A stretch of DNA of 64,000 nucleotides, from positions 105,156 through 169,155 of the forward strand of contig NZ_JACHXU010000015.1 in NCBI RefSeq assembly GCF_014192335.1, given 5' to 3'. The DNA is from Aporhodopirellula rubra. GTDB lineage: Bacteria; Planctomycetota; Planctomycetia; Pirellulales; Pirellulaceae. Shown one piece after another: positions 48,314 through 64,000 of this stretch. The stretch's first letter is position 1. Every line of letters starts with the position of its first letter. Position numbers and translations under genes: made by a program. The notes beneath the pieces were generated by a model. The model was not told where the DNA came from. It did no database searches and saw only the letters and a program-made list of their open reading frames with translations.

Positions 48314-48554
48314 GTCGACTCGAGCATCAGCACCGGCAATGAGATTGCGTCCAACAAAGATGGCATCACTGACATTGTCGGAAAAACCGGCCCGTCGTTT
48401 GAGACCGTGAATGCCAATCGTTACAACCGGACCGCGGGAGTACGCATTCCATTTGCATGGGTGCAAATCGCAACCTATTCATTGAGCGATTGACTTCCGG
48501 ACTCTCTTTTGACTCCGGCCACTCCGCTTTCTCCTTTTTCAAACGGTTCACCTC

Positions 48555-49019: not shown

Positions 49020-49172
49020 AACGAAGCGATCCTCCGTCGTGAACACGACGATGGAGTTTGTACCGGACCTTCATCCGGATTGAGGCATCCGGATTTAGGC
49101 GTCCAGATTCAGACCTCAATCCAGCCCCCGGGCCTGTCTCGCAACCCTTCGTCCCCCTGCCCGCATCGTTCT

Positions 49173-49394: not shown

Positions 49395-49412
49395 ACCGCC
49401 TCAATCGCCTTG

Positions 49413-50042
49413 TTAATCGCGATAATTCGGATGGTAGCCGTCATAGTAAGGAGCGACCGGATACGGTGTGCCCCGCCCAGAGGGATAGGGTGCAAAACCG
49501 TCGGTTCCCGCCGCCGGATTCGGGCGACGCCACTGCTGCCCTGGCCGCTGCGGACCATACGGGTTCCCGGCTCCACCGCCGTTGCCAGGATTGCCAGGGT
49601 TTCCGCCGCCTCCTGGACCTACCGGAGCGATCCCGCCACCATAACCTTGGCCGAAGCCGGGGTAGATGTTGTTGAAACTCAAACCCGCATACGGTGCACC
49701 CCAGTTCGGATAGGGCGTGCTGTAAGGTCGGTATGGAAAACGCCACTCACCATAGGGACGCACGGGATCTCCCCATTGCTCGACCTGGTGGTAGTTGTCG
49801 GCCGATTGACCGTATGCCAGCGAACTACGGTAGTGCGTGTAACCGCTCGTTCTCAGAGGCGGCATGACTGCCGTCGAAGGGGGCTCCACCGGCGCGAACT
49901 GCGCCACACGTTCACCGGTAAGAACGTCATGCGTGAAACGGCTCGGCAAAGTCAACCAATCGGCAGACACCGATTCGAAAACACTGCCTGCGAACACGGC
50001 ACAGACGCATGCGAACAATGGGAGGAGGGTGACACGTTTCAT
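49413..50042 (-). CDS. Secreted Gly/Pro/Tyr-rich protein
   Basis: The start is ATG 50042 (MKRVTLLPLFACVCAVFAGS), a clear signal peptide. The 209-residue product has no recognised domain. The mature part is rich in Pro, Tyr and Gly: EQWGDPVRPYGEWRFPYRPY, then PNWGAPYAGLSFNNIYPGFG, then GGGIAPVGPGGGGNPGNPGN and PYPSGRGTPYPVAPYYDGY. It appears intrinsically disordered. Similar Gly/Tyr-rich exported proteins can be matrix or wall components, but nothing specific is known here. Confidence 0.7.
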   Translation of the reverse strand: MKRVTLLPLFACVCAVFAGSVFESVSADWLTLPSRFTHDVLTGERVAQFAPVEPPSTAVMPPLRTSGYTHYRSSLAYGQSADNYHQVEQWGDPVRPYGEWRFPYRPYSTPYPNWGAPYAGLSFNNIYPGFGQGYGGGIAPVGPGGGGNPGNPGNGGGAGNPYGPQRPGQQWRRPNPAAGTDGFAPYPSGRGTPYPVAPYYDGYHPNYRD

Positions 50043-50284
50043 GTGACCCAAAATAGTTCGTGTTCCCAATTCAGGCGGCCTGCGAGAACGAAAAGATCAT
50101 TCACTTCGCCGACGAACACGTCAAAACCAACCTAACCGGTACAATCCAACTCAATCATGCCGGTGGGCTCTCTGAACGCCTCGTTAATTCGCGGGCGCCT
50201 CTGACGCAGTGACCGGCAGACCGTGTTGCGAGTCTCAACTAACGGAGTCGTTCAGCTCGCGGATCAATCCGGCAGACAACCTGG

Positions 50285-50986
50285 TTAAGAAACCTGAGTC
50301 GCCTTTTGAATCCGTTCGTTCGCATCCTTGAGCAACAACCGCATCGCTTCGCGGGCCGCCTCAGGATCGCGAGCGCAAATCGCATCGAGCACGTTACGGT
50401 GCGGCGGAATGGACGTGCGATTGTCGGACGCCTGACGGTTGGTGACTCGCAAACTCGATGCTAGCGAAACGTGAATCACGTTCGCGACCGGCGAGAAAAA
50501 CAAATTCCCCGTCGCGTGCAAGATCTCAGTATGAAATTGGAGATCAGCCTTCAGGAATTCATCAAGCTTGTCAGTATTCTCTTCCATCTGTTCGAACGCT
50601 TCTCGGATGGCCTGCAACTGTTCGTCGCTCGCCCGCTCCGCAGCAAGCGCCGCGGCCGCTGGTTCGATCGTCTGCCGAAACTCCGTCAGAAAAAACAGTT
50701 GCGAATCACCGGTATCTGCCCGCGACTGCCAATCAAGAACTTCCGGATCGAGATAGTTCCACGACCTCGCTGGTAGCACAATCGTGCCACGCTTGGCCCT
50801 GGAGTCAACCAAGCCCTTCGCCGCCAGCGATTTGATAGCTTCGCGAATGACCGTTCGGCTGACGCCCATCTTGTCACAAAGCACAGCTTCCTGGGGTAAC
50901 GGGTCGCCTGGCTTCACATCTCCCGCCAAAATCTGACATCCCAGATCGTGAACGACTTGGCCACAAAGATTTCGACGAGAACGCAT
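50285..50986 (-). CDS. GntR/FadR-subfamily transcriptional regulator 1
   Basis: ATG 50986 is preferred since MRSRRNLCGQVVHDLG aligns with the paralogue's first residues; the frame extends to 51163. The 233-residue protein has an N-terminal winged helix (PGDPLPQEAVLCDKMGVSRTV, IREAIKSLAAKGLVDSRAKR, GTIVLP). The C-terminal all-helical FCD domain has FLKADLQFHTEILHATGN with the D-x3-H metal ligands and IPPHRNVLDAI with a further His. Such regulators usually repress sugar-acid catabolic genes and are released by the pathway substrate. It is a close paralogue of the regulator at 51662 and precedes the anhydrogalactose-type operon. It probably senses a sugar acid of this pathway, by inference. Confidence 0.9.
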   Translation of the reverse strand: MRSRRNLCGQVVHDLGCQILAGDVKPGDPLPQEAVLCDKMGVSRTVIREAIKSLAAKGLVDSRAKRGTIVLPARSWNYLDPEVLDWQSRADTGDSQLFFLTEFRQTIEPAAAALAAERASDEQLQAIREAFEQMEENTDKLDEFLKADLQFHTEILHATGNLFFSPVANVIHVSLASSLRVTNRQASDNRTSIPPHRNVLDAICARDPEAAREAMRLLLKDANERIQKATQVS

Positions 50987-51661
50987 GTTTTCCATGTAGT
51001 TTAGGCAATCAATACCGATGCTTGGATGACAATTAAAAGAGGGCCTGCGAAGCGTATCAGTATGATTCGAACTTCCTCCAACAGATACAGAGATTACCGA
51101 GATACGCCGACAATAACGCGCAACGAATACGCATTTTTGTTGTTTTGCGCGAAAAAACGGCACAACGTCGCCTTACGGACAATCGGGGGGAATGACTCCA
51201 CACCGAATCTGCAGGAAAACACGAGCTATCGTAGACTCCTCGCCCAACAAAGTCTATTGACTTCACTCAGAGGTTCTTCTGCTGCCAAGATAAGATGAAC
51301 AGCGGTTTCCTAATCGATCGTTGCATTTTCGCGTGGTTTTGTGGTGAGGCAAGAACTCGCCTAGCACAATCCGGTCCCGCAATTTTGCGATCGGCAGCGA
51401 ATCCGATCGACTACGTCCCATCAACCGAACAATTTGCCACATTCAGTTTGCTACCAACCTCGCCTCATCCGCCGCACAATTCTGCGTTTTCACGAGACAG
51501 GTGGGTAGACCACTGCTCAAATCTCACTCAGTTCCTACTCAATACGGCTGAACTGGATCTTCAAGATCGCGTTTGGGGGGAGCAGATTCGGCGAGGCAGT
51601 TTGGCCGGACAGGCGGCGCATTCTGCTCGCAAGGGTTCATCCATCTGGCACGGTACAGCCG
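50987..51661. other. Intergenic region between the two FadR-type regulators
   Basis: This 675-bp gap should hold the promoter of regulator 1. The short string caaagtctattg at 51249 resembles caaagtctatttg beside the operator at 52421, but the operator core TTGTATTACAA is missing. A 181-codon plus-strand frame (51295-51840) has an unconvincing composition and overlaps regulator 2 antisense, so it is not called. Confidence 0.4.
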
Positions 51662-52387
51662 CTATTTTGGACTGGCATCTGACGTTTTTTGGATCGCTCT
51701 TTCAATCCGTTTCGCAGCGTCCATTAGCATCGACAGCATCGCGTCGTGGGCTGCCATTGGCCGGTGTTCAACGATCGCCCGCAACACTTTTTCATGCAGT
51801 GGTACCGATGGAATGTTGTCAGGCGGCAGGCAATTGGTGACCCGCAGGCTGGACTCGAGCGACGCACCAATCACGTTCGCGACGGGTGAAAAAAATGGAT
51901 TGCAGGTCGCTTGCATGATCTCGGTATGGAACCGAATATCCGCGGCGAGAAACGCCTCAACGTCATTGCCAGCCGTTCGATCCATCTCTTCCCATGCCTC
52001 ACGGATCCGATCCAACTCAGGCGTCGACGCGCGCTCGGCAGCCATAGCGGCCGCCTTCGGTTCAACGGCTTGGCGAAATTCAGTCAAACAAATGAGATTC
52101 TGACCACTCTCGTCCGAGCGAGCACGCCAAGCGATCACGTCTTGATCGAGGTGATTCCAAACACACGACGGACGCACAATCGTCCCGCGCTTCGCACGCG
52201 ACTCGATCAACCCTTTCGCCGCGAGCGATTTGATCGCCTCCCGAATCACCGTGCGACTGACGCCCATCTGTTCGCACAACATCCATTCCTGCGGAATCGC
52301 ATCGCCCGGCTCGATTCCGCCTGACACGATACGAACACCGAGATCGTGCACGACCTGCTCACAAAGATTATGACGAGTTCGAGACAT
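51662..52387 (-). CDS. GntR/FadR-subfamily transcriptional regulator 2
   Basis: This 241-residue paralogue of the 50285 product shares near-identical DNA-binding residues (CEQMGVSRTVIREAIKSLAA, then KGLIESRAKRGTIVRP). Its FCD domain has FLAADIRFHTEIMQATCNPF and SVPLHEKVLRAI, so the metal-binding Asp and His residues are kept. The C-terminal domains differ more, so effectors may differ. The start is ATG 52387. The FadR-type palindrome at 52421-52431 lies 34 bp upstream of it, in the shared region with the divergent enolase-superfamily gene, suggesting autoregulation and control of the catabolic operon. Both claims are inferred from position. Confidence 0.92.
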   Translation of the reverse strand: MSRTRHNLCEQVVHDLGVRIVSGGIEPGDAIPQEWMLCEQMGVSRTVIREAIKSLAAKGLIESRAKRGTIVRPSCVWNHLDQDVIAWRARSDESGQNLICLTEFRQAVEPKAAAMAAERASTPELDRIREAWEEMDRTAGNDVEAFLAADIRFHTEIMQATCNPFFSPVANVIGASLESSLRVTNCLPPDNIPSVPLHEKVLRAIVEHRPMAAHDAMLSMLMDAAKRIERAIQKTSDASPK

Positions 52388-52742
52388 TTTTCCTCACACC
52401 ACTTGATTGCCAAAGTCTATTTGTATTACAATACCACATTCACCGCAAGCGTTCGCCCACGGTGCAACGAGAGTGATTCAAAAGGCGACAAGGATCCGTT
52501 GTAAATGCGGGACTGCGACGCCCCAGACTCAACAAGACAACGTTTTTTGTTTTGACACGGGGAGTGCATCGGCAGACGCTGTGGACGACAAGAGACATCC
52601 TCGCAAACAAATGATTGAAGACATGGATAATCAGGATTGGTGCCCCACGACCTCGCCAGTTTCGATGTCATCAGCACCCAGTCGAGTTATCTCGCCTCGC
52701 GCAACCACGAGCGAAAACTCAAATCAAATCGGCTCGTCTGGC
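52388..52742. other. Divergent promoter region with operator
   Basis: This 355-bp gap lies between regulator 2 and the catabolic operon. It contains the 11-bp palindrome at 52421-52431. The frame of the next gene is open to 52407 but lacks family-like residues before 52743, so about 310 bp are taken as leader. Confidence 0.6.
52421..52431 (+). promoter_or_regulatory. Putative FadR-type operator TTGTATTACAA (copy 1)
   Basis: The perfect 5-bp inverted repeat TTGTA-T-TACAA fits the FadR-subfamily consensus TNGTNNNACNA. The same 11-mer recurs at 57729-57739, with matching flanks (ctatttgtattacaatacca versus tctttttgtattacaatatc). It is the best candidate site for the two adjacent regulators. Confidence 0.75.
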
Positions 52743-53897
52743 ATGAAGATCCAATGCATCCGAACACACCACCTGCGTGACCACCTCGATGTGCCATTCG
52801 GTTTTTCACAATGGTATTACGACACGCGAAACACTTTGTGGGTTGAGATTGTTGCCGAGGATGGTACGACCGGTTGGGGCGAGTGCTATGGGCCGTCAGA
52901 AATTTATCAATCCGCGATCAACAGTTTCTATGCGCCGAGACTGCTTAATCAAAACGCCTTAGCAACGGATGTCTTATGGCATTTGATGTGGCGTTCCTCG
53001 CTCGACTTCGCACGCGGCGGAGTGATGATGGGTGCGATGTCGGGAATCGACATGGCTCTTTGGGATCTCCGTGGAAAGGCGCTTGGACAGTCGGTTTCCG
53101 ATCTGATGGGTGGTCGATACGCCGACGAGATTCCCTGCTATGCCACCGGCATGTACTTTAAAGAGATGCCCGAAGCAGACCTAATTTCGTCAATCGTCGC
53201 GGAGGCATCGAGTTACCAACAACAAGGTTTCCAAGCACTCAAGATCAAGGTGGGCAAGAACCTGGCCTTCGACGCAAAACAAATCGAAGCCCTCCGAGAT
53301 GCATTACCGAACATGACCATGATGGCCGATTCGAATCACGCGTTCGATCTACCCGAAGCGATTCAAATCGGACGTATTCTCGAAGAGAATGACTTCAGTT
53401 GGTTCGAAGAACCGCTGTCACCTGAATTCGAAGGACAGTTTCGACAACTCCAAGACAAACTTGACATTCCCATCGCGACCGGCGAATGCGAACAAACGCG
53501 ATATGGCTTCCAACGAATGTTATCGACCGGCGGCGTACAAATCGCGCAACCCGACCTTGCCTATTGCGGCGGTCCTTCCGAAGCATTGAAGATCCGCAAT
53601 CTAGCCTCCTCGATGGGGATCAACGTGGTGCCGCATTGCTGGGGTACCATGCTCAACCTAGCATCAGCGACTCACTTCATTGCATCGGGATATCGCGAAC
53701 CCGGTCGAAAAGAAACTCCGTCGCCACTGCTTGAATACGATCGCACCCCCAACGCACTTCGTGATGAACTTTTTGAAGTTCCCGTGGTCGTTCGCGATGG
53801 CATCGCCCAAGTCCCAACGGGACCGGGACTCGGCGTGATTGTGAATGAAGAAAAGATGCAGTCTTTCGTCGTGAACCAAACCGAAATCAAGGCTTGA
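52743..53897 (+). CDS. Enolase-superfamily (MR/MLE) sugar-acid dehydratase or cycloisomerase
   Basis: ATG 52743 (MKIQCIRTHH) starts a 384-residue protein of the mandelate racemase group. Visible catalytic residues are K167 and K169 in ALKIKVGKN, metal ligands D196 (MMADSNH), E222 (WFEEPL) and E248 (ATGECEQ), and H298 (VVPHCWGTML). These abstract the proton alpha to a carboxylate. In the context of aldehyde dehydrogenase, KDG-type kinase and aldolase genes it would make 2-keto-3-deoxy-galactonate, either by cycloisomerisation of 3,6-anhydrogalactonate or by dehydration of galactonate. The former is favoured because the operon has an aldehyde dehydrogenase and no galactose dehydrogenase. This is inference; other MR-type sugar-acid dehydratases are possible. 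Confidence 0.88.
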   Translation: MKIQCIRTHHLRDHLDVPFGFSQWYYDTRNTLWVEIVAEDGTTGWGECYGPSEIYQSAINSFYAPRLLNQNALATDVLWHLMWRSSLDFARGGVMMGAMSGIDMALWDLRGKALGQSVSDLMGGRYADEIPCYATGMYFKEMPEADLISSIVAEASSYQQQGFQALKIKVGKNLAFDAKQIEALRDALPNMTMMADSNHAFDLPEAIQIGRILEENDFSWFEEPLSPEFEGQFRQLQDKLDIPIATGECEQTRYGFQRMLSTGGVQIAQPDLAYCGGPSEALKIRNLASSMGINVVPHCWGTMLNLASATHFIASGYREPGRKETPSPLLEYDRTPNALRDELFEVPVVVRDGIAQVPTGPGLGVIVNEEKMQSFVVNQTEIKA

Positions 53898-53901
53898 AGG
53901 G

Positions 53902-55338
53902 ATGCTGAACCATCGTTTTTCGATGTTGATCAATGGCAAGTTGATTCACACGGACAAAACATTCCCGGTAACCAATCCGGCTACCGGCAAAGTCGTCGCG
54001 GAAGTCCCCGAGGTGGACGATGCATCGATCCAACTGGCACTAACTTCGGCGCACGACGCCTTTCAAATCTGGTCCCGGATGCCGCTGTCTCAGCGACAAC
54101 CGATCATTGAAAAATACCGCCAACTGCTCGAACGCAATCGCGAAGAAATCATCGGACTGCTGATCACAGAAACCGGCAAACCGTACGACAATGCCGAATA
54201 CGACTTTGGAATGCTGACGACATGCCTTCGTTTTTTCTGTGATGAAGCCGCTCGCATTGACCAACAGGTGATTCCTGACCCCGATGGTCGTTTTTTGAAC
54301 TACACCCTACGTCAGCCTCTGGGAGTGGTGGTGGGATATCTCGCGTGGAACTTCCCGCTGCTGAACCTCGGATACAAACTCGGACCGGTATTGGCATCCG
54401 GATGCACCGCGATCATCAAACCATCTCAGGTCACCCCGCTGGCGACGCTCCGATGTGCAGAATTGCTGATTGATGCAGGCGTACCCGATGGCGTCATTAA
54501 CATTTTCAGCGGCACCGATTATGACGTCACGGCCCCGCTGCTCGAGAGCGGCATTCCTTCGATGTTCACGATGATCGGATCGACGCGAGCAGGTGTCGGC
54601 GCGATGAAGTCGGCCTGCACGAACGTCAAACATTTCTCCGTCGAGTTAGGCGGAAACGCCCCCGTGCTCGTTTACGACGATGCCGACATCGAGGCCGCGG
54701 CTCACAGCATTGTCGATCTGAAATTCGCTAATTCGGGTCAAGTCTGCGTTTCCCCCAATCGCTGCTTCGTCCACGAATCCGTGTATGAGGAATTCTTGTC
54801 CGCCGCGGCCGCTCGCGCGTCGGGCATCACCCTCGGCGCCGGACGAGGTGACGGACGACGAATGGGGCCAGTGCTCACTTCTCAAGCACGTGACCGAATG
54901 TTGTCATTGATTTCAGCCGCACAGGAAAAAGGGGCCTCGATCGTTTGTGGGGGCAAGGCTCCCGACCCAGCCATGGAAGGCTTTTTCATTGAACCGACCA
55001 TCCTTCGCGATGTCAGCCGAGACATGGCACTGTCATGCGACGAAATTTTCGGCCCGATCCTGCCCGTCATCCCCTTCACTGACGATGACGACGAAATCGC
55101 ATTAGCCAACGATACCGAATATGGATTAGCCGCTTACGTGTACACGACGAACATCACCCGAGGGCTCCGAGCAGCCGCCGAGATCGAAGCGGGCAGCGTT
55201 TGCGTCAACGAAGTCCACTACGCCGTGCACCTGCCTCACGGCGGGTTGAAACAAAGCGGCGTGGGCAAAGACTGCTCCCGCTACAGCTTGCAAGAATACC
55301 TCACGCTCAAACGGGTTTCTGTCCTCGTTGGTCCGTAA
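53902..55338 (+). CDS. NAD(P)-dependent aldehyde dehydrogenase (anhydrogalactose dehydrogenase candidate)
   Basis: This 478-residue protein belongs to the classical ALDH superfamily. It shows WNFPLLNLGYKLGPVLASGCT (NAD(P) and oxyanion region with N150), KPSQVTPL, MIGSTRAG, the general base E248 in FSVELGGNAPV, and the nucleophile C282 in NSGQVCVSPNR. Start ATG 53902, four bases after the preceding stop, implies translational coupling. Its closest general types include succinate-semialdehyde, lactaldehyde and sugar-aldehyde dehydrogenases. In this operon it may oxidise 3,6-anhydrogalactose to 3,6-anhydrogalactonate; the enzymes known for that step are of the ALDH superfamily. Substrate and cofactor preference are inferred, not seen. 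Confidence 0.92.
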   Translation: MLNHRFSMLINGKLIHTDKTFPVTNPATGKVVAEVPEVDDASIQLALTSAHDAFQIWSRMPLSQRQPIIEKYRQLLERNREEIIGLLITETGKPYDNAEYDFGMLTTCLRFFCDEAARIDQQVIPDPDGRFLNYTLRQPLGVVVGYLAWNFPLLNLGYKLGPVLASGCTAIIKPSQVTPLATLRCAELLIDAGVPDGVINIFSGTDYDVTAPLLESGIPSMFTMIGSTRAGVGAMKSACTNVKHFSVELGGNAPVLVYDDADIEAAAHSIVDLKFANSGQVCVSPNRCFVHESVYEEFLSAAAARASGITLGAGRGDGRRMGPVLTSQARDRMLSLISAAQEKGASIVCGGKAPDPAMEGFFIEPTILRDVSRDMALSCDEIFGPILPVIPFTDDDDEIALANDTEYGLAAYVYTTNITRGLRAAAEIEAGSVCVNEVHYAVHLPHGGLKQSGVGKDCSRYSLQEYLTLKRVSVLVGP

Positions 55339-55402
55339 TGACGCCCCTACCGAATCGATCCGGTTCAACACAATCACCGCATATCGGCATCCCGCACTCC
55401 TC

Positions 55403-56044
55403 ATGAACTTCCCGACCGAAATTTTAGACCGACTAAGAAAGTCAGGCGTCGTCGCGGGTTTCTCGGTAGATAATGTCGCGCACGCAATCCCGCTGGCCAA
55501 AGCACTCCTCGCTGGCGGCATCGACGCCATCGAACTGACACTGCGAACGCCCGCGGGACTCGAGTCGGTCAAAGCGATCTGTGAAAACGTTCCCAACATG
55601 CTAGTGGGCGTTGGCACCATTTTGACGCCGGAGACCGCTATCGAAGTCAAAGCAGTGGGCGCCGATTTCGGCGTTGCTCCGGGAATGAATCCCCGTGTCG
55701 TCCGCGCCGCACAAGAGGCAGGCCTTCCCTTCGCACCCGGCATCGCCACACCATCGGACCTCGAAGCCGCGATCGAGCTGGGTTGTCGATTCGTCAAATT
55801 CTTCCCGGCCGAACCGGCCGGAGGAATCACGTACCTTCGCAGCATGGCGGCCCCCTATCAACATTTAGGCATCGAGTACTTTCCTCTCGGTGGAATCAAC
55901 GCCGACAATATGTCGAGCTATCTCCGGGAACCCAACGTTCCGGCCGTCGGCGGATCCTGGATCGTGCAAAAGGAATTAGTCGATCGCAAAGATTGGTCCG
56001 GCATCACCGAACGTGCTGCCGCAGTATTCAAGCGCACGAAATAG
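55403..56044 (+). CDS. 2-keto-3-deoxy-6-phospho-galactonate/gluconate aldolase
   Basis: ATG 55403 (MNFPTEILDRL) gives 213 residues, the usual size for class I KDPG/KDPGal aldolases; the frame upstream from 55328 is leader. Active-site residues are E44 in AIELTLRTP (with R48), and the Schiff-base K132 in GCRFVKFFPAEPAGG. Other family features are GVGTILTPE, GVAPGMNP, PFAPGIATPSDLE, and FPLGGINADNMSSYL for phosphate binding. It splits the phosphorylated ketodeoxy sugar acid into pyruvate and D-glyceraldehyde-3-phosphate in the cytoplasm. The kinase for the preceding step is the next gene. Confidence 0.93.
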   Translation: MNFPTEILDRLRKSGVVAGFSVDNVAHAIPLAKALLAGGIDAIELTLRTPAGLESVKAICENVPNMLVGVGTILTPETAIEVKAVGADFGVAPGMNPRVVRAAQEAGLPFAPGIATPSDLEAAIELGCRFVKFFPAEPAGGITYLRSMAAPYQHLGIEYFPLGGINADNMSSYLREPNVPAVGGSWIVQKELVDRKDWSGITERAAAVFKRTK

Positions 56045-56207
56045 CGTTCAGGAAATTTCGTGCGGCAACGTTCGATTGCAATCCGCATCGTTTCCGCTCA
56101 CGTTCACGAACGTCCCGCCTGTTCTTCAATAACGAAACCATCAATCGGATGCTTCCGTCGGTGATTGCATCTCCCCATCAAACTCGACAATCATGTGGAA
56201 TGAGCCA

Positions 56208-57296
56208 ATGAATACGGTCGTGACCTTTGGCGAAATCATGGGACGACTCGCCGCTCCGGATAACCTTCGACTCCGACAAACCCGCGAACTCGAGGTGACG
56301 TACGCCGGTGCTGAAGCCAGCGTGGCGGCATCGATTTGCAACTTCGGTGGTTCAGCACGCTATGTGACCGCGTTGCCCAAACACGCATTGGCTGACGCAA
56401 CAATGGACGCCGTTCGCGCCGTCGGTATCGACACCCGTTATGTCCTGCGGACCGACAACGGACGCCTCGGCCTCTACTTTCTCGAAACCGGTGCCAATCA
56501 ACGCCCTAGCAATGTGATCTACGATCGCGCCGACTCCGCGATCGCCATCACACCCGCCGATCAATACGACTGGAACACAATTTTTCACGATGCTCAGTGG
56601 CTCCATCTCAGCGGCATCACACCGGCACTTTCAAAAAATTCAGCCAATGCCACGCTCGTTGCCGCGAAAGAAGCCAAACAAGCGGGTGCCACAGTCTCAA
56701 TCGATCTCAACTTTCGAGGCAAGCTATGGAAATGGGCGACACCGAAATCGTCGCGCGAACTCGCTCAAGAAACGATGAAGAGCGTTTTGCCTTATGTCGA
56801 CGTTGTCATCGCGAACGAAGAAGACTGCCATGACGTTCTCGGCATCCAAGCCGGCGACACTGATGTGCATTCCGGATCCTTGGACACGTCGCGTTACCCT
56901 GACGTGGCCCGCCAAGTCATCAAGATGTTTCCCAACATCAGCAAAGTTGCCATCACGCTTCGCGAAAGCCTCTCGGCAACGCACAATAACTGGGGCGCGA
57001 TGCTGTTTGACGCGGCATCGGACCAACCGGCATTCGCTCCGGTGGACCACGCTGGTAACTATCAGCCTTACGAAATCAAAAACATCGTCGACCGAGTCGG
57101 GGGTGGCGACGCGTTCGCAGGAGGGCTGATCTTTTCCCTCATCACCGCAGAACTGAGCGAGCCACAAACAGCAGTCAAATACGCCGTCGCCGCATCCTGC
57201 TTGAAACATTCGATCAAGGGCGACTTCAACTACTCCACCCGCGCTGAAGTAGAGTCACTCATGGGAGGCTCAGCGTCAGGACGCGTTGTGCGTTAG
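56208..57296 (+). CDS. PfkB-family sugar kinase (2-keto-3-deoxy-gluconate/galactonate kinase type)
   Basis: The start at ATG 56208 (MNTVVTFGEIMGRL) matches the usual KDG-kinase opening; ATG 56193 is five codons longer. The 362-residue product has the N-terminal substrate lid and AGAEASVAASICNFG near residue 33, SIDLNFRGKLW (typical of KDG kinases, with Arg for the carboxylate), VIANEEDC, and the PfkB signature 2 DRVGGGDAFAGGLIFSL with the catalytic Asp (D301). It would phosphorylate 2-keto-3-deoxy-galactonate (or gluconate) at O6 using ATP. The gap to the aldolase gene is 163 bp with no terminator seen, so one transcript is likely. Confidence 0.9.
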   Translation: MNTVVTFGEIMGRLAAPDNLRLRQTRELEVTYAGAEASVAASICNFGGSARYVTALPKHALADATMDAVRAVGIDTRYVLRTDNGRLGLYFLETGANQRPSNVIYDRADSAIAITPADQYDWNTIFHDAQWLHLSGITPALSKNSANATLVAAKEAKQAGATVSIDLNFRGKLWKWATPKSSRELAQETMKSVLPYVDVVIANEEDCHDVLGIQAGDTDVHSGSLDTSRYPDVARQVIKMFPNISKVAITLRESLSATHNNWGAMLFDAASDQPAFAPVDHAGNYQPYEIKNIVDRVGGGDAFAGGLIFSLITAELSEPQTAVKYAVAASCLKHSIKGDFNYSTRAEVESLMGGSASGRVVR

Positions 57297-57779
57297 CTCG
57301 CGTCTTTCGCTCAACCCGGAAAACACACTACGCCACAACTTGCAAACCCGAACCTCCGGTTGCTCTGCACTCGAATTACCGCGCGTAACATGCACGCGTT
57401 TTGATTGGAGCATGCCGACCAGGCACGTCCCCATTTCACCGACAGTCACCTGTTCACGATAGAGCAGTGCCAAACAGCAGCAATACCCACGAGCAGCCCG
57501 CAATCGCTCCCAGCAATTAACGCGAGTGCGCACGAGAATTGCACGCGATTTCTACCAGCTCTCAACGGCCCCGCGACCTCAGCAACCATGCGCCGTACGG
57601 CCCCGATAGCGCACGAAAACCGTCTGGAAAAGATGGCGACGGATCCGCCGACGTCCCCAACGGATCCGTCATTCGCTTAATCGCCCTCTATTAAATACCA
57701 TCACCCCATTGACGACGCCCTCCTCTTTTTGTATTACAATATCACCTACCGGAATTCACCTCAACGTGGGACATCGACC
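57297..57779. other. Intergenic region between the two catabolic units
   Basis: This 483-bp gap contains the second operator copy at 57729-57739 and presumably a promoter. No hairpin terminator for the first operon was seen. Short frames here have no protein-like composition. Confidence 0.5.
57729..57739 (+). promoter_or_regulatory. Putative FadR-type operator TTGTATTACAA (copy 2)
   Basis: Identical to the 52421 palindrome. It lies 41 bp before the sulfatase ATG (57780), where it could block initiation. The site contains the TTG that would otherwise be a long-frame start of the sulfatase, which supports the ATG. Confidence 0.75.
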
Positions 57780-59180
57780 ATGCACGCCTCGCGGATCCTG
57801 TTCATCGCAGCAGCCATGCTTCTACCGGCATGTTGCCTGGCAGCGGAAAAGCCGAATATTGTCTTGCTCTTTGCCGACGACGCAGGGTACGGCGACTTCG
57901 GTTTTCAAGGCAGTCGCCATTTCAAAACGCCCCATTTAGACAAACTCGCAAAGTCCGGCGTCCGGCTAACCCAGTTCTACGTGTCGGGAGAAACGTGCGG
58001 CCCATCTCGTGCAGGATTGCTCTCGGGTCGCTATCAACAGCGATTCGGTTACGAGGAAATCAACGTTCCCGGAATCATGAGTTCGCACAGCAAACTGCTC
58101 GGTGATGAAATGGGTTTGCCGACTCATTTAAAGACGATGGGGAACCATCTGCAGGACCTAGGCTATCGCACGGCCGTGTTTGGCAAGTGGCACATGGGTG
58201 TCGCCGATCGATACCACCCGCTCCGCCGCGGATTTGACGAGTTCTACGGGATGCGAGGTGGCGCCCGGAGTTTCTTTGCGTATGAAAATCCAAACCAGAC
58301 CGCGCGCGAAAACCTAATCGAACGCAACTTTGAAAACTATCAAGAACACGACGGTTACCTGACCAACGCGATCGCGGATGAAGCATGCGAGTTCATTGAG
58401 CGCAACCAGGATTCTCCCTTCTTTGCCTACGTTTCTTTCACCGCAGTGCATACCCCAATGCAAGCGGACCCGAATGACAAAGACTCGTTTCCTCAATTGG
58501 ATGGGACTCGCCGAACCGCCGCCCAAATGATGCTGTCGATGGATCGTGCATGCGGCAAAATCCTCGACAAACTCAACGCGCTCGGCGTCAGCGAAAACAC
58601 TCTCGTTGTGTTCACCAATGACAACGGCGGTCCGATGGATAAAAACGGATCGAGCAACTATCCCTTGAGCGGAGTGAAAGGCACACAACTCGAGGGCGGC
58701 ATTCGCGTCCCGGGAATCGTCTCATGGCCGAACAAGTTAAAAGGTGATTCGGTTTTTGACTCGCCGCTTATTACGCTCGATCTCCTGCCCACATTCATCG
58801 CCGCAGGCGGCGGTGATCCCTCGAAGATTGACGACCTCGACGGCACTAACATGTTGCCTTTTCTGCAAGGCGACACCTCCACATTACCGCACAAAACGCT
58901 GCACTGGAAAATGGAAACGCGTGGCGCCATTCGAGAAGGCGATTGGAAGTTACTACGTTTCCCAGACCGCCCTGCGGAGTTGTTCGACCTCGCCAAAGAC
59001 CCCGCCGAACAACACGATCTCGCCCGCCAGCACCCTGAGATCGTCAAACGTCTCTTTCGCAGCATGTTCGCGTGGGAACTCGAACTCGAACGCCCCCTGT
59101 TTATGCTTCGCCGGGCAGAAGAAGGATGGTCATCCCGGCGGACAGACCAATTCCGATCGCCACCCGCCAAAAAATACTAA
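57780..59180 (+). CDS. Secreted formylglycine-dependent sulfatase (S1 family)
   Basis: ATG 57780 gives 466 residues with a signal peptide (ILFIAAAMLLPACCLAAE). Family features are NIVLLFADDAGYGDFGFQG (metal ligands D33, D34) and CGPSRAGLLSGR at residues 73-84, where C73 is the site converted to formylglycine (C-x-P-S-R-x4-x-G-R). FGKWHMG (Lys and His) and FTNDNGGP (Asp, Asn) complete the calcium and catalytic site. It hydrolyses sulfate esters of a carbohydrate outside the cytoplasm. Being first in a unit with two GH16 enzymes and a GH127 enzyme suggests a sulfated galactan substrate; the position of the sulfate is unknown. A formylglycine-generating enzyme must be encoded elsewhere. Confidence 0.95.
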   Translation: MHASRILFIAAAMLLPACCLAAEKPNIVLLFADDAGYGDFGFQGSRHFKTPHLDKLAKSGVRLTQFYVSGETCGPSRAGLLSGRYQQRFGYEEINVPGIMSSHSKLLGDEMGLPTHLKTMGNHLQDLGYRTAVFGKWHMGVADRYHPLRRGFDEFYGMRGGARSFFAYENPNQTARENLIERNFENYQEHDGYLTNAIADEACEFIERNQDSPFFAYVSFTAVHTPMQADPNDKDSFPQLDGTRRTAAQMMLSMDRACGKILDKLNALGVSENTLVVFTNDNGGPMDKNGSSNYPLSGVKGTQLEGGIRVPGIVSWPNKLKGDSVFDSPLITLDLLPTFIAAGGGDPSKIDDLDGTNMLPFLQGDTSTLPHKTLHWKMETRGAIREGDWKLLRFPDRPAELFDLAKDPAEQHDLARQHPEIVKRLFRSMFAWELELERPLFMLRRAEEGWSSRRTDQFRSPPAKKY

Positions 59181-59258
59181 TACGAACTCATTGATATCCC
59201 CAACCATATCGATCGCTTTCTATCTCAATTTCATGTTTGCCAAGTCAACGAACTAACC

Positions 59259-60746
59259 ATGAGAATCGCTAGCCAAAATTTCTCCGTAGCGCGAAACCTC
59301 CTCGGCATCAGTCTCCTGCTATTCGCGTCCGCCAACACGCAGGCACAAGACAATCACCTCACTTCGAAGGCTCCGGCACCCAAACACCCCGGTACGGTGT
59401 CACCCGCGTCCGACCCATCCAACTCAGGCAACTGGAGCCTTCGCGAAGATATCAGTGATGAGTTCGAAGGCGACGAAATTGACCAGTCGAAATGGTTTGT
59501 CGAAGGGAATAATGGTGACTACTACATCTGGAAGGGCCGGGCACCTTCGCAATTTGCTCCCCATAACGTGATCGTCGAAGACGGCAAACTGAAGATCCGG
59601 TCACAATGGGAACCGGCATTCAATTTTGCCAAAGACGAAGGACATGAAGGCAATACCTACCGAACCCACGAAGGCAAAGACGTCCCCGTCACGACCGGAG
59701 GCGTGGTCAGTCGCAAACGTTTTCTAAACGGATACATGGAAGTCAAATCCAAGCCGGGTGATTCGGCGATGACCGCCGCGTTCTGGGCCATCGGCTACGA
59801 ATCAGAACTCGATATCTACGAACAGATGGGTAACCCCAACGCCGGCAATGATATCCAAGAAGACAGCACCAAAATGAGCGTGCACGACTGGCAGCCACCG
59901 GCGAAGCGCCCGACGAGAAAGTTCGGTTACAAAAAGAAACTCCCCTACCGCGTCGCAGATGACTTTCACGTCTTTGGTTGCGAATGGGGCGAAGATTACC
60001 TGAAGTGTTTTATCGACGGCGAACTCGTTTATGAAACCACTCAGGAACAAGAAGGCAAGAACTGGGTGCTGACCAACCCACTAGAAATTTGGTTGGACTC
60101 CGAGATCTTCGTTTGGCTCGGTCTCCCAACTGAAGATGAACTGCCTACCGATTTTGAAATCGAATATCTTCGGGTTTGGCAGCAGTCGCAATCCAACCTC
60201 CTCGATCGTGCCTTCTTCGGCTTCGAAGGTCCGTTCCTGTTTCAAGAGAACCCACGGCCGCTGGATCTGGTCCCCGAAAGTTCAGTCAACAATGACTATC
60301 AACAGTTCTGGCGCATCAATGATGCATCAGCGAAACACTTCTCAATCGTCCGGCACAAGGAATTCGCATCCGGCACACGCAGCCTGATGTTGACGACCGA
60401 AGACGAACTTTCCGCAAACGACGTTTTCGTTGAAGGCCCCGAAGGGTCCGTTGATATTGCCGCGGGCACCTACGATTTCACCGTGAAAGTTTGGGTCGAT
60501 TCCAATAGCACTGCAGAGAAAATCCAGTTTTCTCTCGCGGATCCAACCTTCGAACTTCCTGCAATCGACCTGACGTCGTGCGAGAAGGGTGAGTGGGTAA
60601 CGGTCACTCAGTCGTTCACAAAAGAACAATCCTCCACCGATTCAGATCGTTTGAAGATCTCCATTGACCGCGTTAACACCCCCAGCGGCAAAAATCTTAT
60701 CTATCTCGATGAGATCGCTATCCAACGCTCTGAAGCGTCAAAATGA
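59259..60746 (+). CDS. Secreted GH16 glycoside hydrolase with C-terminal carbohydrate-binding-like domain
   Basis: The 495-residue protein has a signal peptide (NLLGISLLLFASANTQAQ). The GH16 domain spans residues 58-315: it opens WSLREDISDEFEGDEIDQSKWF, has GGVVSRKRFLNGYMEVKSKP, and contains the catalytic signature E183-L-D185-I-Y-E188 in FWAIGYESELDIYEQMGN. The nucleophile and acid/base are the first and last Glu; the extra residue between Asp and Glu marks the beta-bulge type found in agarases, porphyranases and kappa-carrageenases. From residue 335 a beta-rich domain resembling a CBM4/CBM9-like jellyroll follows. It should cut beta-1,4 bonds of an algal galactan outside the cytoplasm; exact polysaccharide unknown. 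Confidence 0.88.
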   Translation: MRIASQNFSVARNLLGISLLLFASANTQAQDNHLTSKAPAPKHPGTVSPASDPSNSGNWSLREDISDEFEGDEIDQSKWFVEGNNGDYYIWKGRAPSQFAPHNVIVEDGKLKIRSQWEPAFNFAKDEGHEGNTYRTHEGKDVPVTTGGVVSRKRFLNGYMEVKSKPGDSAMTAAFWAIGYESELDIYEQMGNPNAGNDIQEDSTKMSVHDWQPPAKRPTRKFGYKKKLPYRVADDFHVFGCEWGEDYLKCFIDGELVYETTQEQEGKNWVLTNPLEIWLDSEIFVWLGLPTEDELPTDFEIEYLRVWQQSQSNLLDRAFFGFEGPFLFQENPRPLDLVPESSVNNDYQQFWRINDASAKHFSIVRHKEFASGTRSLMLTTEDELSANDVFVEGPEGSVDIAAGTYDFTVKVWVDSNSTAEKIQFSLADPTFELPAIDLTSCEKGEWVTVTQSFTKEQSSTDSDRLKISIDRVNTPSGKNLIYLDEIAIQRSEASK

Positions 60747-61987
60747 AACGCCATATCCGCATCGACCATCTCCCCCACGTCGCCATGAAAACGATAAGTC
60801 CGATCGCCAGCCACTCACTCTTCGCACCTATTCTCCTCTTACTGATGGCCTCGCCGTTGATGGCGTTAGAACCGTCTCCCGTAGGGGAAATTTTCCAAAA
60901 TAGCCCAGGAGATTGGGAGTTCGTATCAAACCAATCGGATGAATTTGATAGCGACCAAGTTGACACGGCGAAATGGAACATCAATACCGAAGATTTGGGA
61001 ACATGGAGTTGGGAACCCGAAAATACTTTTCAACTCGACGGCATCATGCATCTGCGAATGGTGCAAGAAGACCACCAACGAGGTAACAATAAACTCGCCT
61101 ACAAATCTGGAATTGCCCGCCAATACACAACGGCAACGTATGGCTATTTTGAAGCACGCGTGAAGGGATGTGATTTGTTCCCGGGTGCTTCTCCGGCATT
61201 TTGGTTGCACAGCAAGGGACCTGAGAATCGTTTCATGGCAACGGATGGAGAAACCGTTGCCTATTCCGAGATCGACGTCATCGAACTTCAGCAGGGGGAA
61301 TACAACGACACGACCAAGCAAAATAACGGCGTTGATATCATCGACTGCAACCTTCACGCCGTTTTGATTCGCGATGGCAAGCGACAGTGGATCCGTCCTG
61401 GCACACACCCGGAAACGAACAAAAACGAATATCACGCTTCGTTTGACCCTCGCAAGGATTTTCACGTCTACGGCGTTGAGAACAACAAAGACTTTGTCAT
61501 CTGGTACATCGATGGCAAGGAAGTAGCACGCAAACCCAATCTCTACTGGCATCTTCCCATGCACATCACCTTGTCGTTGGGTTTGCGACGGCCGTTTGAA
61601 ACCTACAAAAACGGTGGACGCGAAGCGGTCCTCGAAAACACGACTCGAGAGGGCTTTCCGACAGAAATGTTGGTCGACTACGTGCGTGTCTGGAGAAACA
61701 AAAACACCATCGCAGAGTCATCGACACCCAACAAACAATCAAACGGCTCGAAAGTAAAAACGAAAACCCGATCCGGCAACCAACTCGACAACGAGGTCGC
61801 TGGCCATTCAATGAGCAAATCGCAATTTGTCGCCATGGAGAAAGCCAAGTGGGAAAGCAACGGCTGGCCATGGAATCGCGAAAAGGTGGAATCCAACTTT
61901 GAAGAAATCGATGTCAACAACGACGGAGTCGCTTCGGGAATCGAACGTCAAAAATGGTTTGCCAAAAAGAAGGCTTCGCTGAAGTAA
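60743..61987 (+). CDS. Secreted GH16 glycoside hydrolase with C-terminal EF-hand-like tail
   Basis: The gene overlaps the preceding GH16 gene by 4 bp (ATGA, 60743-60746). The frame has 414 residues; ATG 60785 is an alternative closer to the signal peptide (SLFAPILLLLMASPLMALEP). The catalytic signature is SEIDVIELQQG (E176-I-D178-V-I-E181), again the beta-bulge type. The strands FEARVKGCDLFPGASPAFWLHS and DFHVYGVENNKDFVIWYIDGKE are typical of GH16. The last 60 residues contain an EF-hand-like loop DVNNDGVASGIE. The pair of divergent GH16 proteins suggests complementary cleavage of one or two related galactans. Confidence 0.88.
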   Translation: MKRHIRIDHLPHVAMKTISPIASHSLFAPILLLLMASPLMALEPSPVGEIFQNSPGDWEFVSNQSDEFDSDQVDTAKWNINTEDLGTWSWEPENTFQLDGIMHLRMVQEDHQRGNNKLAYKSGIARQYTTATYGYFEARVKGCDLFPGASPAFWLHSKGPENRFMATDGETVAYSEIDVIELQQGEYNDTTKQNNGVDIIDCNLHAVLIRDGKRQWIRPGTHPETNKNEYHASFDPRKDFHVYGVENNKDFVIWYIDGKEVARKPNLYWHLPMHITLSLGLRRPFETYKNGGREAVLENTTREGFPTEMLVDYVRVWRNKNTIAESSTPNKQSNGSKVKTKTRSGNQLDNEVAGHSMSKSQFVAMEKAKWESNGWPWNREKVESNFEEIDVNNDGVASGIERQKWFAKKKASLK

Positions 61988-62076
61988 CCGTACGCCATTC
62001 GAACCAGCTAAATTGTACTCATCGGATCATCGCTGCTCCGATTGCCAACACCCCCAAATGTTCGACGAAGCCCAAC

Positions 62077-63669
62077 ATGAATTCTTACAAGACGAACGCG
62101 ATGATTTACTCAACGATCGTCGCGATGGGAGGCTTTCTGTTCGGGCTCGATGCAGCTCTCATTTCAGGAACGATCGATTACATCACGGCCGAGTTCTCGT
62201 TAACGCCCGAGCAACTCGGAACCGCCGTCAGCGCTCCCGCGTTGGGTGTTCTGGTCGCTCTGCCGTTTGCGGGCTACATCTGCAATCAGTTCGGGCGCAA
62301 AAAAGCGATCCTCTTGATCGCAATCCTCTACCTGGTCTCCGCAATCTGTTCGTCACTGGCCCCGAGTTACTGGACTTTGGTTGCCGCTCGTTTCTTAGGT
62401 GGTCTCGCATTCAGCTCCATCTCACTGGCGTCCATGTACATCGGCGAGATCGCACCACCCAAACTACGAGGAAAACTCGTTTCGATGACCCAAATCAATA
62501 TCGTGATCGGGTTATCGGGCGCTTACTTCGTCAACTACCTGATCAATCACTGGGCGACGTCCGGTGCACCCTGGGTGGTCAACATGGGACTCGACACCAG
62601 CACGTGGCGTTGGATGCTGGGGTCTGAAGTACCGTTCGCCGTACTCTGGTTCGGGCTCCTATTGTTCATCCCGGAAAGCCCATCGTGGTTTGTGTTTCAA
62701 CATCGGGACGAAGACGCAAAGCAGACCTTGCGCAAACTGATGCCCGAGGATGAGATCGATGCCCACGTGGCCGAGGTTCGTGAAAGTATCCACAAAACCA
62801 CCGATGACCATTCCATCCAAGCACAGTTACGGGGGATCTTTGGCAAACCGATGCGATTGACGTTTGTGATAGCATTGACGATTGCGATTGCACAACAATC
62901 CACGGGCATCAACGCGGTCTTGTTCTACGCTCAAACAATTTTCAAACAACTCGGTATTGGCTCAGACGCCGCGTTCGTGCAAGCCATATGGGTTGGTCTG
63001 ACCAGCATCGTATTTACGGTCATGGGGCTACTACTCGTTGATCGACTCGGCCGTCGCCCGCTGATTATCTGGGGAATGGTTTGGATCATTGCGAGCCTGG
63101 GCATCTGTGCCTACGCGTTCCACAACGCTCGCTACGTCGTCAGCGAACAAACAATTGCTGCCATCGAAGCCGACGAACAAAACGCTCTCAGCGAAGTAAG
63201 CCGACTTCAATCCATCGCGGGAGTCCAACATACCAGCGACATCGAATTCAAACAGGCGATTCGCGACACATTGGGCCCCGACGATGCGAACAAACACATG
63301 GGAACGATCCTGGACGCCTCGATCCAAATCGACGCAAAACTGGTCCTATTCGGCATCCTCAGCTTCATCGCCGCGTTCCACTTTTCCGTCGGCCCGGTGA
63401 TGTGGGTTCTGTTCTCAGAGATCTTCCCCGTTTCGCTTCGTGGCATCGCGATTCCCTTCTTCACGATTGTGACCAGTCTGACGAGTTGGCTCGTTCAGTT
63501 TTTTTTCCCGCGACAACTTGAGAGCATGGGAATGACGTCCGTGTTCCTTTTTTACGCCGGAACCGTATTCGCCGGGTTGGTGATTTTGTTCTTCACACTA
63601 AAAGAAACCAAGAACATGAGCATCGAGGAAATCGAAACAACACTGCGAACGAACGGAGCAACCACGTAA
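62077..63669 (+). CDS. MFS sugar transporter, sugar porter family
   Basis: ATG 62077 (MNSYKTNAMIYSTIV) gives 530 residues with 12 helices; the frame upstream to 61954 overlaps the GH16 gene. Sugar-porter signatures are FGLDAALISG in TM1, GRKKAIL after TM2, LGGLAFSSISLASMYIGEIAP, PESPSWFVF before the central loop, QQSTGINAVLFYAQTIF in TM7, and RLGRRPL after TM8. It resembles XylE/GalP-type proton symporters. A loop of about 80 residues near residue 390 (YVVSEQTIAAIEADEQN...) is longer than in those proteins. It likely imports a monosaccharide released by the hydrolases (galactose or anhydrogalactose), which is inference. Confidence 0.9.
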   Translation: MNSYKTNAMIYSTIVAMGGFLFGLDAALISGTIDYITAEFSLTPEQLGTAVSAPALGVLVALPFAGYICNQFGRKKAILLIAILYLVSAICSSLAPSYWTLVAARFLGGLAFSSISLASMYIGEIAPPKLRGKLVSMTQINIVIGLSGAYFVNYLINHWATSGAPWVVNMGLDTSTWRWMLGSEVPFAVLWFGLLLFIPESPSWFVFQHRDEDAKQTLRKLMPEDEIDAHVAEVRESIHKTTDDHSIQAQLRGIFGKPMRLTFVIALTIAIAQQSTGINAVLFYAQTIFKQLGIGSDAAFVQAIWVGLTSIVFTVMGLLLVDRLGRRPLIIWGMVWIIASLGICAYAFHNARYVVSEQTIAAIEADEQNALSEVSRLQSIAGVQHTSDIEFKQAIRDTLGPDDANKHMGTILDASIQIDAKLVLFGILSFIAAFHFSVGPVMWVLFSEIFPVSLRGIAIPFFTIVTSLTSWLVQFFFPRQLESMGMTSVFLFYAGTVFAGLVILFFTLKETKNMSIEEIETTLRTNGATT

Positions 63670-63756
63670 ACTCATCCTGAACATCATTTCCTTGCTGTAA
63701 TTCAGAATTTCAGTGACGCCCGTCGCGTTCAATACTTCCACGATTCGTTAAGAGTT

Positions 63757-64000
63757 ATGATCGACACATCCAACAGTCCTCACGTCAAACTTAAGAACAT
63801 CGGCATCGGTGAATGCCAATGGACGGAGGGATTCTGGGCAGACAAATTCCGGCAATGTGAAGAGATCATGGTGCCCCACATGGGCACCCTACTCAAAGGC
63901 GATATTGGACACGGCTACAACAACTTCAAAATTGCGGCAGGTCTAAAAGAGGGCAAACATCAGGGTTTTGCTTGGCACGACGGAGACTTTTTCAAATGGA
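63757..64000 (+). CDS. GH127 (DUF1680) family protein, 3' truncated
   Basis: The gene starts at ATG 63757 and runs off the window after 81 codons. The fragment contains FWADKFRQCEEIMVPHMGT and NNFKIAAGLKEGKHQGFAWH, then DGDFFKW. This matches the N-terminal part of GH127 enzymes, where the beta-L-arabinofuranosidase HypBA1 has the related NLKVAAG and DSDVYKW. The catalytic Glu and Zn-binding Cys residues lie downstream. GH127 members also act as alpha-1,3-(3,6-anhydro)-D-galactosidases in carrageenan degradation, which fits the surrounding genes, but the fragment cannot show specificity. There is no signal peptide, so a cytoplasmic enzyme acting on imported oligosaccharide is likely. Confidence 0.8.
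   Translation, partial: MIDTSNSPHVKLKNIGIGECQWTEGFWADKFRQCEEIMVPHMGTLLKGDIGHGYNNFKIAAGLKEGKHQGFAWHDGDFFKW

Follow-up and report, generated by a model that had tools for sequence, protein, structure and literature searches.

A cluster of genes at the right end of a 64,000-nucleotide stretch from the marine planctomycete Aporhodopirellula rubra (the window; G000:C15:105156-169155, in a genome of 8.55 Mb on 75 contigs) very probably forms an island for the utilization of red-seaweed carrageenan (kappa, beta/kappa, and probably iota) under a FadR-family regulator. The genes are arranged in the order reg1-reg2, dauB-dauA-dauD-dauC, and S1a-GH16_13-GH16_17-MFS-GH127, with two S1 sulfatase genes past the window end. 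An earlier note on this DNA had named the genes of the window in this order, and all of them were found, the GH127 gene starting at 63757 and running off the window. Extension to the right of position 64000, which that note had proposed, completed the GH127 gene (650 amino acids, aa) and added the two sulfatase genes. The reading is drawn from the sequences: from the relatedness of the encoded proteins, the residues of their subsites, the gene order shared between genomes, and a conserved palindromic site.

Enzymes encoded in the island

All dau genes are located on the plus strand. The dauB gene (52623..53897) encodes a predicted 3,6-anhydro-D-galactonate cycloisomerase of the MR/MLE type (MR_MLE_C, 188 bits). 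Its better start, 52623, is an in-frame ATG, and the N-terminal extension is also present in the congeners. The best PDB match is 5olc, the DauB of Zobellia (343 bits), followed by 4ggb (290 bits). Residues K, D194, E220, E246, H296, and W298 are invariant across the five planctomycete rows of the alignment and agree with the residue numbers given for AtGCI in PMC5698469, AtGCI itself standing outside the alignment. The dauA gene (53902..55338) encodes a predicted 3,6-anhydro-D-galactose dehydrogenase of the aldehyde dehydrogenase (ALDH) superfamily (Aldedh, 474 bits), with 6pnu as the best PDB match (401 bits; next, 354 bits). This structure is one of the entries in PMC6923384, a paper describing DauA, and from its chain name, aldehyde dehydrogenase, we infer that it is DauA itself. 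The two remaining genes encode a KDPG/KDPGal-type aldolase (dauD, better start 55403, 55403..56044; PF01081, 197 bits; TIGR01182, 213 bits, cut-off 156) and a PfkB-type 2-keto-3-deoxy-sugar-acid kinase (dauC, 56208..57296; PfkB, 107 bits), for which the best PDB match is the KDG kinase 2afb (288 bits).

The genes for the predicted depolymerizing enzymes of the window also lie on the plus strand. The GH16_17 protein (60743..61987) is identified as a kappa-carrageenase by the equivalog model NF041449 (515 bits, cut-off 350) and by its best PDB match, the kappa-carrageenase 1dyp (222 bits). The GH16_13 protein (59259..60746) is of the beta/kappa-carrageenase (furcellaranase) type; it has 9ijc/9int as the best PDB matches (185 bits; next, 112 bits) and is 32% identical to the furcellaranase Ce385 over 511 columns, the subfamily number being taken from PMC6952198 and PMC13168452 and not from a subfamily hidden Markov model. 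The ExDxxE motif is present in both GH16 proteins (SELDIYE, SEIDVIE). For comparison, Ce343, Ce384, Ce385, and Ce387 of Colwellia echini were picked on their contig by the residue numbers in Table 1 of PMC6952198, and all four agreed. In the alignment with these enzymes, the minus-1 subsite of GH16_17 has the 4-sulfate-binding Trp and the Arg and lacks the Gal-binding Glu, and that of GH16_13 has the Gal-binding Glu and lacks the Arg. Because these residues differ, the two enzymes are predicted to divide the polymer between them according to its sulfation, like those of C. echini, and judged by the same residues the pair consists of the following: one 4-sulfate-binding kappa-carrageenase and one enzyme of the furcellaranase type.

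The sulfatase S1a (better start 57780, 57780..59180; sulfatase, 187 bits) matches best the exo-4S-kappa-carrageenan sulfatase 6prm (601 bits) and 6psm, an entry with the same enzyme name (596 bits); the next different enzyme is 6bia (300 bits). The other two sulfatase genes were found in L010, a fetched stretch with its own coordinates that holds the contig beyond the window end. The best PDB match of S1b (L010:about 2979-4694) is 9hh3, named "family S1-19" with no substrate stated (622 bits), followed by 6bia (558 bits) and the iota-carrageenan sulfatase 6b0j (550 bits). S1c is encoded at L010:about 4872-6509. The formylglycine motif of S1 sulfatases, C-x-P-S-R, is present in the translations of all three (CGPSR, CGPSR, and CSPSR, respectively).

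The GH127 protein (63757..64000 on the plus strand of the window; full gene, L010:912-2864; PF07944, 316 bits) is DagA-like, a putative 3,6-anhydro-D-galactosidase. It is 53-59% identical to the GH127 proteins at three gammaproteobacterial dau loci. Its paralogues in the same genome include two on C9 (23-27% identity), one on C1 (65%), and another on C5. By homology, the core of carrageenan loci (dagA, dauA, dauB, and dauD) is present here in one locus. A search for GH42, standing in for a GH167-like activity, gave two matches (37 and 22 bits; cut-off 21), both far from the island.

Signal peptides were judged by eye from the N-termini. Signal-peptide-like N-termini were found in S1a-c and in both GH16 proteins, and none in the island GH127 or its orthologs in the genus. 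Since GH127 shows no signal peptide by eye, import of oligosaccharides by the sugar porter of the major facilitator superfamily (MFS; better start 62077, 62077..63669, plus strand; PF00083, 314 bits; TIGR00879, 301 bits, cut-off 238) and cleavage in the cytosol appear probable. A periplasmic form may also be encoded: a 65%-identical DagA-like GH127 with a signal-peptide-like N-terminus was found at C1:222181 (L278:6497-8569; C1:221497-223569).

In the proposed pathway, secreted GH16_17 would cut kappa-carrageenan at 4-sulfated galactose and GH16_13 would cut where the galactose is unsulfated, with the S1 sulfatases taking off 4-sulfates and possibly another sulfate. The neocarra-oligosaccharides would cross the inner membrane, most likely through the MFS porter, and GH127 would free D-anhydrogalactose in the cytosol. 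DauA would oxidize this sugar, DauB would open the ring to give 2-keto-3-deoxygalactonate, DauC would phosphorylate it, and DauD would split the product into pyruvate and glyceraldehyde-3-phosphate. Both transcription units, together with a distal prepilin/DUF1559 gene in the window genome, would be controlled by reg1/reg2 through the palindrome TTGTAnTACAA.

Conservation, putative control site, and competing readings

Conservation was analyzed in two genome samples, one of 241 genomes of the family and one of 392 genomes drawn across the phylum, and in a scan of named genomes, where 80 loci were kept out of 105 relatives. Aporhodopirellula aestuarii ICT_H3.1 (G150), Rhodopirellula sallentina SM41 (G159), and G157 belong to the same genus as the window genome, and G143 belongs to another genus. 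The whole gene order is kept in G150 and G157, and G143 keeps it without reg2 up to the end of its contig. R. sallentina keeps dauD-dauC-S1a-GH16_17-GH127-S1b on a single contig. Further genomes contain the dau genes with GH16_13, MFS, and GH127 (G048 and G049) or with S1a, two GH127 genes, and S1-type genes (G146); in G148 the dau genes and the enzyme cluster are about 55 kb apart, and G063 and G190 retain less of the island. Because the order is kept across genomes, including one of another genus, the gene set is not a chance grouping.

DauB was found at E <= 1e-80 in 11 of the 241 family genomes (13 matches in all, of which those in G048 and G049 include one paralogue each at 40% identity). 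Among the 392 phylum-wide genomes it was found twice, in the window's own and in one with a match at 42% identity. NF041449 was above its cut-off in 17 of the 241 family genomes. A reg1 match was found at 10 of the 11 family dau loci, the contig of R. sallentina stopping before the place of reg1, and reg2 was seen in just four genomes, all from the genus of the window.

One ortholog of the island kappa-carrageenase fits an assayed enzyme. RsCgk of R. sallentina, a protein of 369 aa and 42.5 kDa, hydrolyzes kappa-carrageenan (PMC9783963). The dau-linked GH16_17 of this species, on the contig that also holds S1b, GH127, S1a, dauC, and dauD, has 369 aa and a mass of 42,512.7 Da counted from the second Met of its open reading frame (ORF); no listed Met start of the other GH16_17 copy yields 369 aa. 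RsCgk fits the dau-linked ortholog by length and mass, which is a match of sizes and not of letters compared.

Both GntR/FCD regulators are encoded on the minus strand: reg1 (50285..50995, better start about 50995; FCD, 103 bits; GntR, 64 bits), which belongs to the FadR family, and its paralogue reg2 (51662..52387; GntR/FCD; 59% identical to reg1). The palindrome TTGTAnTACAA was derived by comparing the sequences upstream of dauB in 11 genomes. It is a candidate FadR-family operator, as its place is conserved and its sequence fits a palindrome like TNGTNNNACNA, which we take to be the FadR-type consensus. The window contains two matches with no more than one mismatch, both exact (expected, 0.49; two are reached in 8 of 100 shuffles). 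Both read TTGTATTACAA; the first (52421..52431) lies between reg2 and dauB and the second (57729..57739) about 40 bp before the start of S1a.

The site, with 0-1 mismatch, was found beside reg1, reg2, or dauB at all 11 family dau loci (exact at 7, one mismatch at 4). Of the 7 genomes in which S1a is close by, 6 also have it in front of that gene. Like sites precede S1a in G150, G157 (one mismatch), G159, G146, and G148, and G143 has no site before S1a at <=1 mismatch. The regions with dau genes or enzyme clusters (458 kb) hold 12 exact sites and the remaining planctomycete regions fetched (631 kb) hold 1, a contrast that is not independent of the motif, which was derived from some of those regions. 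With one mismatch allowed, 27 sites were found vs. about 9 in base shuffles, so some one-mismatch sites must be due to chance. In the whole 8.55-Mb genome the exact palindrome occurs 3 times and the reversed pattern 11 times. Binding of reg1 and reg2 to the site, and the direction in which they would regulate, are presumed.

The set of MR/MLE protein, ALDH, aldolase, and kinase might instead serve galactarate or galactonate and merely adjoin the carrageenan enzymes, which we consider very unlikely. The structure second to DauB, 4ggb, is that of the galactarolactone cycloisomerase AtGCI (named in PMC5698469), and most DauB homologues at 38-42% identity have no DauA match. However, a long branch with full support separates the three 38-42% homologues used in the DauB tree. 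Moreover, at 30 of the 35 named loci with DauB at >=58% a DauA-like match was found in the fetched stretch, many of these loci also having GH16, S1, or GH127 matches. An agar or porphyran island, with dau-like genes acting on L-anhydrogalactose and GH16 agarases or porphyranases, is most improbable: GH16_13 does match porphyranases (71 bits) and DauB the L-anhydrogalactonate cycloisomerase 5xd7 (122 bits), but the carrageenan enzymes are far better matches, and the assayed kappa-carrageenase of R. sallentina agrees with the ortholog in length and mass.

The earlier note had proposed a sulfated-galactan pathway of the carrageenan/furcellaran or agar type. Its first part stood, as an operon of the dau type for D-3,6-anhydrogalactose alongside carrageenan/furcellaran enzymes; agar and porphyran were not supported, because NF041449 scores 515 bits against a cut-off of 350, DauB is nearest to the Zobellia DauB, S1a is nearest to the exo-4S-kappa-carrageenan sulfatase, and S1b is nearest to an S1_19 sulfatase with no substrate stated and then to an iota-carrageenan sulfatase. 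As far as relatedness tells, GH16 and GH127 did not group with laminarinases or plant arabinofuranosidases, nor the MR/MLE protein with an unrelated dehydratase, the groupings that the note had considered damaging.

Several observations count against the carrageenan island as read here. A DauA match is absent at 5 of the 35 close DauB loci (L118, L125, L133, L134, and L148), and at three of these (L125, L133, and L134) it was not found in 10 kb fetched on each side. The dauC and dauD trees are poorly resolved. S1c matches best the arylsulfatase 6hhm, followed by an iduronate-2-sulfatase. None of the seven PDB matches of GH127 is DagA, and the top one is named beta-L-arabinofuranosidase. On the R. 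sallentina contig, no GH16_13 or MFS match was found among S1a, GH16_17, and GH127, so this locus reproduces the island only in part. Finally, two exact TTGTAnTACAA sites were found at the dau locus of Gayadomonas, a gammaproteobacterium.

Relatives of dauD and dauC at >=57% identity were found only at loci of the Planctomycetes-Verrucomicrobia-Chlamydiae (PVC) group; at gammaproteobacterial loci, dauD is 31-37% identical and no dauC match was found. The DauB and DauA trees contain no Bacteroidota row, and the rows left out were the gammaproteobacterial loci L125, L129-L134, and L137 and all DauB matches below 45% except three outgroup rows. In the DauB tree, Pirellulaceae (except G190) are set apart from a group mixing G190, Adhaeretor, Kiritimatiellota, Verrucomicrobiota, and Desulfofustis. 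In the DauA tree, Adhaeretor is placed with Kiritimatiellota and Verrucomicrobiota. These trees suggest gene exchange among the phyla, with many forks open and either direction compatible. The GC content is 53.5% in the island vs. 54.8% at positions 1-50000 of the window, which is uninformative on horizontal acquisition.

Kappa-carrageenase genes located away from dau loci often adjoin an S1c-type sulfatase gene, 61-75% identical (G190, G143 C10, G158, G109, G002, G170, G139, G056, G160, and G544); such a neighbor was not seen in G006, G169, G172, and G145 as fetched. A decayed kappa-carrageenase remnant next to an S1c-type sulfatase gene was found at G160:C1:393087-393227 (L256). A second GH16_17/GH16_13 pair of the window genome is located on C11 (L047:6647-18955) with genes for a GntR/FCD regulator and for aldose-epimerase-like, GH29-type, and GH43-type proteins. 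This region was rejected as a second carrageenan island: no TTGTAnTACAA at <=1 mismatch was found in 60 kb, and its GH16_17 has Arg in place of the 4-sulfate Trp and no C-terminal module. The substrate of that GH16_17 may differ. Past the island itself lie a gene for a BBP2 porin and then large nonribosomal-peptide-synthetase-like genes (L010:9770-19998), the latter recognized from ORFs by eye.

DUF1559 prepilin genes and a shared C-terminal module

The third exact site of the genome (C1:248128) lies about 0.5 kb before the gene for a 419-aa DUF1559 protein (C1:248632; N_methyl, 29.6 bits, cut-off 21.2; SBP_bac_10/DUF1559, 213.7 bits, cut-off 23.3). In this region (C1:248128-249891; L277:10128-11891) the site is followed by a small lipoprotein-like ORF and then by the prepilin/DUF1559 gene. 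Among 10 other DUF1559 proteins, which a prepilin pattern picked out of the fetched regions, the nearest is the one from the dau locus of strain CA13 (89% identical over 416 residues). Its gene is located between reg1 and dauB, with a one-mismatch site 615 bp upstream; within 600 bp, the best site has 3 mismatches. The leaders of the two genes are alignable, best over the small lipoprotein-like ORF (by eye). AlphaFold modeling of the CA13 protein from a two-row alignment gave a mean predicted local distance difference test score (pLDDT) of 28.8, with only the N-terminal helix confident.

At 5 of the 12 planctomycete dau loci, DUF1559 genes adjoin dau genes or the regulator. Besides the CA13 locus, they were found between reg1 and reg2 in G157 (2-mismatch site), between reg1 and dauB in G143 (1-mismatch site), and next to reg1 in G190 (1-mismatch site). 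In Adhaeretor (L138:3933-9421), a GntR-DUF1559-lipoprotein-sulfatase set is divergent from dauB, and no TTGTAnTACAA at <=1 mismatch was found there. For six unlinked DUF1559 genes, the best site within 600 bp has 2 mismatches (one gene), 3 (four genes), or 4 (one gene).

Chance may also account for the third site and the DUF1559 neighbors, although we regard this as rather unlikely. Planctomycete genomes have tens of DUF1559 copies, as in Rhodopirellula baltica with 74 genes (PMC2754498), and a few exact sites should turn up in 8.5 Mb anyway, where the reversed-pattern control even exceeds the palindrome (11 vs. 3). The dau-linked DUF1559 proteins, the CA13 pair aside, form no clade of their own, and the linked gene of G157 has a 2-mismatch site only, the same as the unlinked G000_C22 gene. 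No DUF1559 gene was seen near the dau genes in the fetched stretches of G150, G159, G146, G048, G049, and G063 or in the window's own island. In contrast, a random site would fall within 600 bp before a DUF1559 gene with a chance of only about 0.6%, and the gene at the third site has its 89% ortholog, with an alignable leader, inside a dau locus. Furthermore, a DUF1559 gene lies <=3 kb before dauB at 4 of the 12 loci, where about 0.5 would be expected. Under independence P is about 0.001, but the 3-kb limit was chosen after the fact, the genomes are related and so not independent, the R. baltica genome size was taken as given, and G159 and G063 have <1.5 kb of contig before dauB.

The kappa-carrageenase (module at 61817..61984, plus strand) and S1b (L010:about 4542-4691) share a C-terminal stretch of about 50 residues, 56% identical, with an EF-hand-type loop. 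A single-sequence search found this module in two proteins of the genome, a third match being weak (E 0.4). With a 14-row profile, 26 matches at E <= 4e-13 were found in the 241 family genomes (next, 5e-4) and, in the 392 phylum genomes, one strong match beyond the two of the window (next, 2e-4). Carrageenan enzymes carry all 27 strong matches, with three families represented: 20 kappa-carrageenases (including a fragment at a contig end and a decayed remnant), 2 GH16_13 proteins, and 5 S1b-type sulfatases. The module is present on 17 of the 23 above-cut-off kappa-carrageenase matches, and the six without it are the C11 paralogue or match that paralogue best. Among the 80 named loci, none but planctomycete ones showed it at E <= 0.01. 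The Pfam model EF-hand_5 reaches 12-18 bits, below its cut-off of 25.9, and the loop residues fit by eye. The predicted model, based on three rows, has three helices and a mean pLDDT of 74 (loop block, 56). Calcium-dependent anchoring or docking would be a guess at its role. Being common to three enzyme families, the module offers a handle on their localisation.

Sugar porters of the MFS are inner-membrane carriers. The suggestion of the earlier note that the porter stands in for SusCD was not supported, as MFS genes are also present in the carrageenan loci of Zobellia (permease ZGAL_3149; PMC5698469, Table 1) and of C. echini (38% identical to the island MFS). Gene identification at 46000-64000 and in L010 turned up no susCD, with no SusC/SusD model run and the rest of the genome unsearched. 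A DUF1559 pilin is a candidate for the outer-membrane capture step. Tentatively, substrate-specific pilins might replace SusCD: the carrageenan regulator would act through TTGTAnTACAA on one DUF1559 member, its pili-like product would capture carrageenan into an enlarged periplasm, and the EF-hand-like tag would co-locate the kappa-carrageenase, the furcellaranase, and the iota-type sulfatase there. In that case, the DUF1559 paralogues of a genome, which number in the tens, would make up a set of capture proteins for different glycans, each tied to a separate catabolic operon.

Little is novel about the enzymes, although this planctomycete carrageenan pathway is conserved and one of the orthologs fits an enzyme that has been assayed. 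The control site matters more, since the passage of polysaccharides across the planctomycete outer membrane is an open question; with a DUF1559 gene tied to a single substrate, outer-membrane uptake and DUF1559 function would become testable together.

Comparison with known carrageenan systems

The polysaccharide utilization locus (PUL) ZGAL_3145-3159 of Zobellia galactanivorans shares with the island dauA-D, the GH127 DagA, S1 sulfatases, and an MFS permease (PMC5698469). The kappa-carrageenase of Zobellia belongs to the regulon according to the same source, whereas the kappa-carrageenase and GH16_13 genes lie inside the island here. The regulator is of the AraC type in Zobellia and of the FadR family here, and the SusCD pair of Zobellia is distal to its PUL, whereas no SusCD gene was seen at the island locus. 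The CarPUL of Pseudoalteromonas fuliginea PS47 (PMC6923384) resembles the island, with structures of its DauA and S1_19B heading the PDB matches of the island DauA and S1a and with kappa-type and beta-type GH16 enzymes occurring together. PS47 uses GH167 and a TonB-dependent system; neither was among the island genes identified, where no dedicated model search for either was run. The CAR PUL of C. echini (PMC6952198) likewise contains kappa-carrageenases (Ce343/Ce384), furcellaranases (Ce385/Ce387), and dauB-dauA. Its kinase looks different in kind by eye, and its aldolase shares only 32% identity.

RsCgk fits, by size, the R. sallentina ortholog of the island GH16_17 (64% identical over 93%, C-terminal module included). 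PMC9783963 studies this single enzyme, and the term 'gene cluster' does not occur in its text. Kappa-carrageenase genes have been reported in Rhodopirellula (PMC4807772). The 2024 survey PMC11131199 states that, to its authors' knowledge, planctomycete clusters of carbohydrate-active enzymes had no functional characterization. According to PMC10632474, the DUF1559 (SBP_bac_10) family, of which the C1 regulon candidate is a member, has no known function and makes up the largest set of paralogues in P. limnophila, and PMC2754498 calls it a solute-binding family; the consulted portions of these two papers make no link to carrageenan. On how planctomycetes bring polysaccharides across the outer membrane, PMC5394234 speculates about crateriform structures and their fibers, which bound gold-labeled dextran. 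In the open-access literature searched, no paper joining planctomycetes, EF-hand, sulfatase, and carrageenan was found.

Carrageenan loci with the common core dagA, dauA, dauB, and dauD were described in 2017 in 29 further species of four phyla, including Planctomycetes (PMC5698469). The island thus adds a member to an already reported kind, and relative to the open-access literature searched, the new elements are the control site, the DUF1559 gene that it would target, and the C-terminal module shared by the enzymes.

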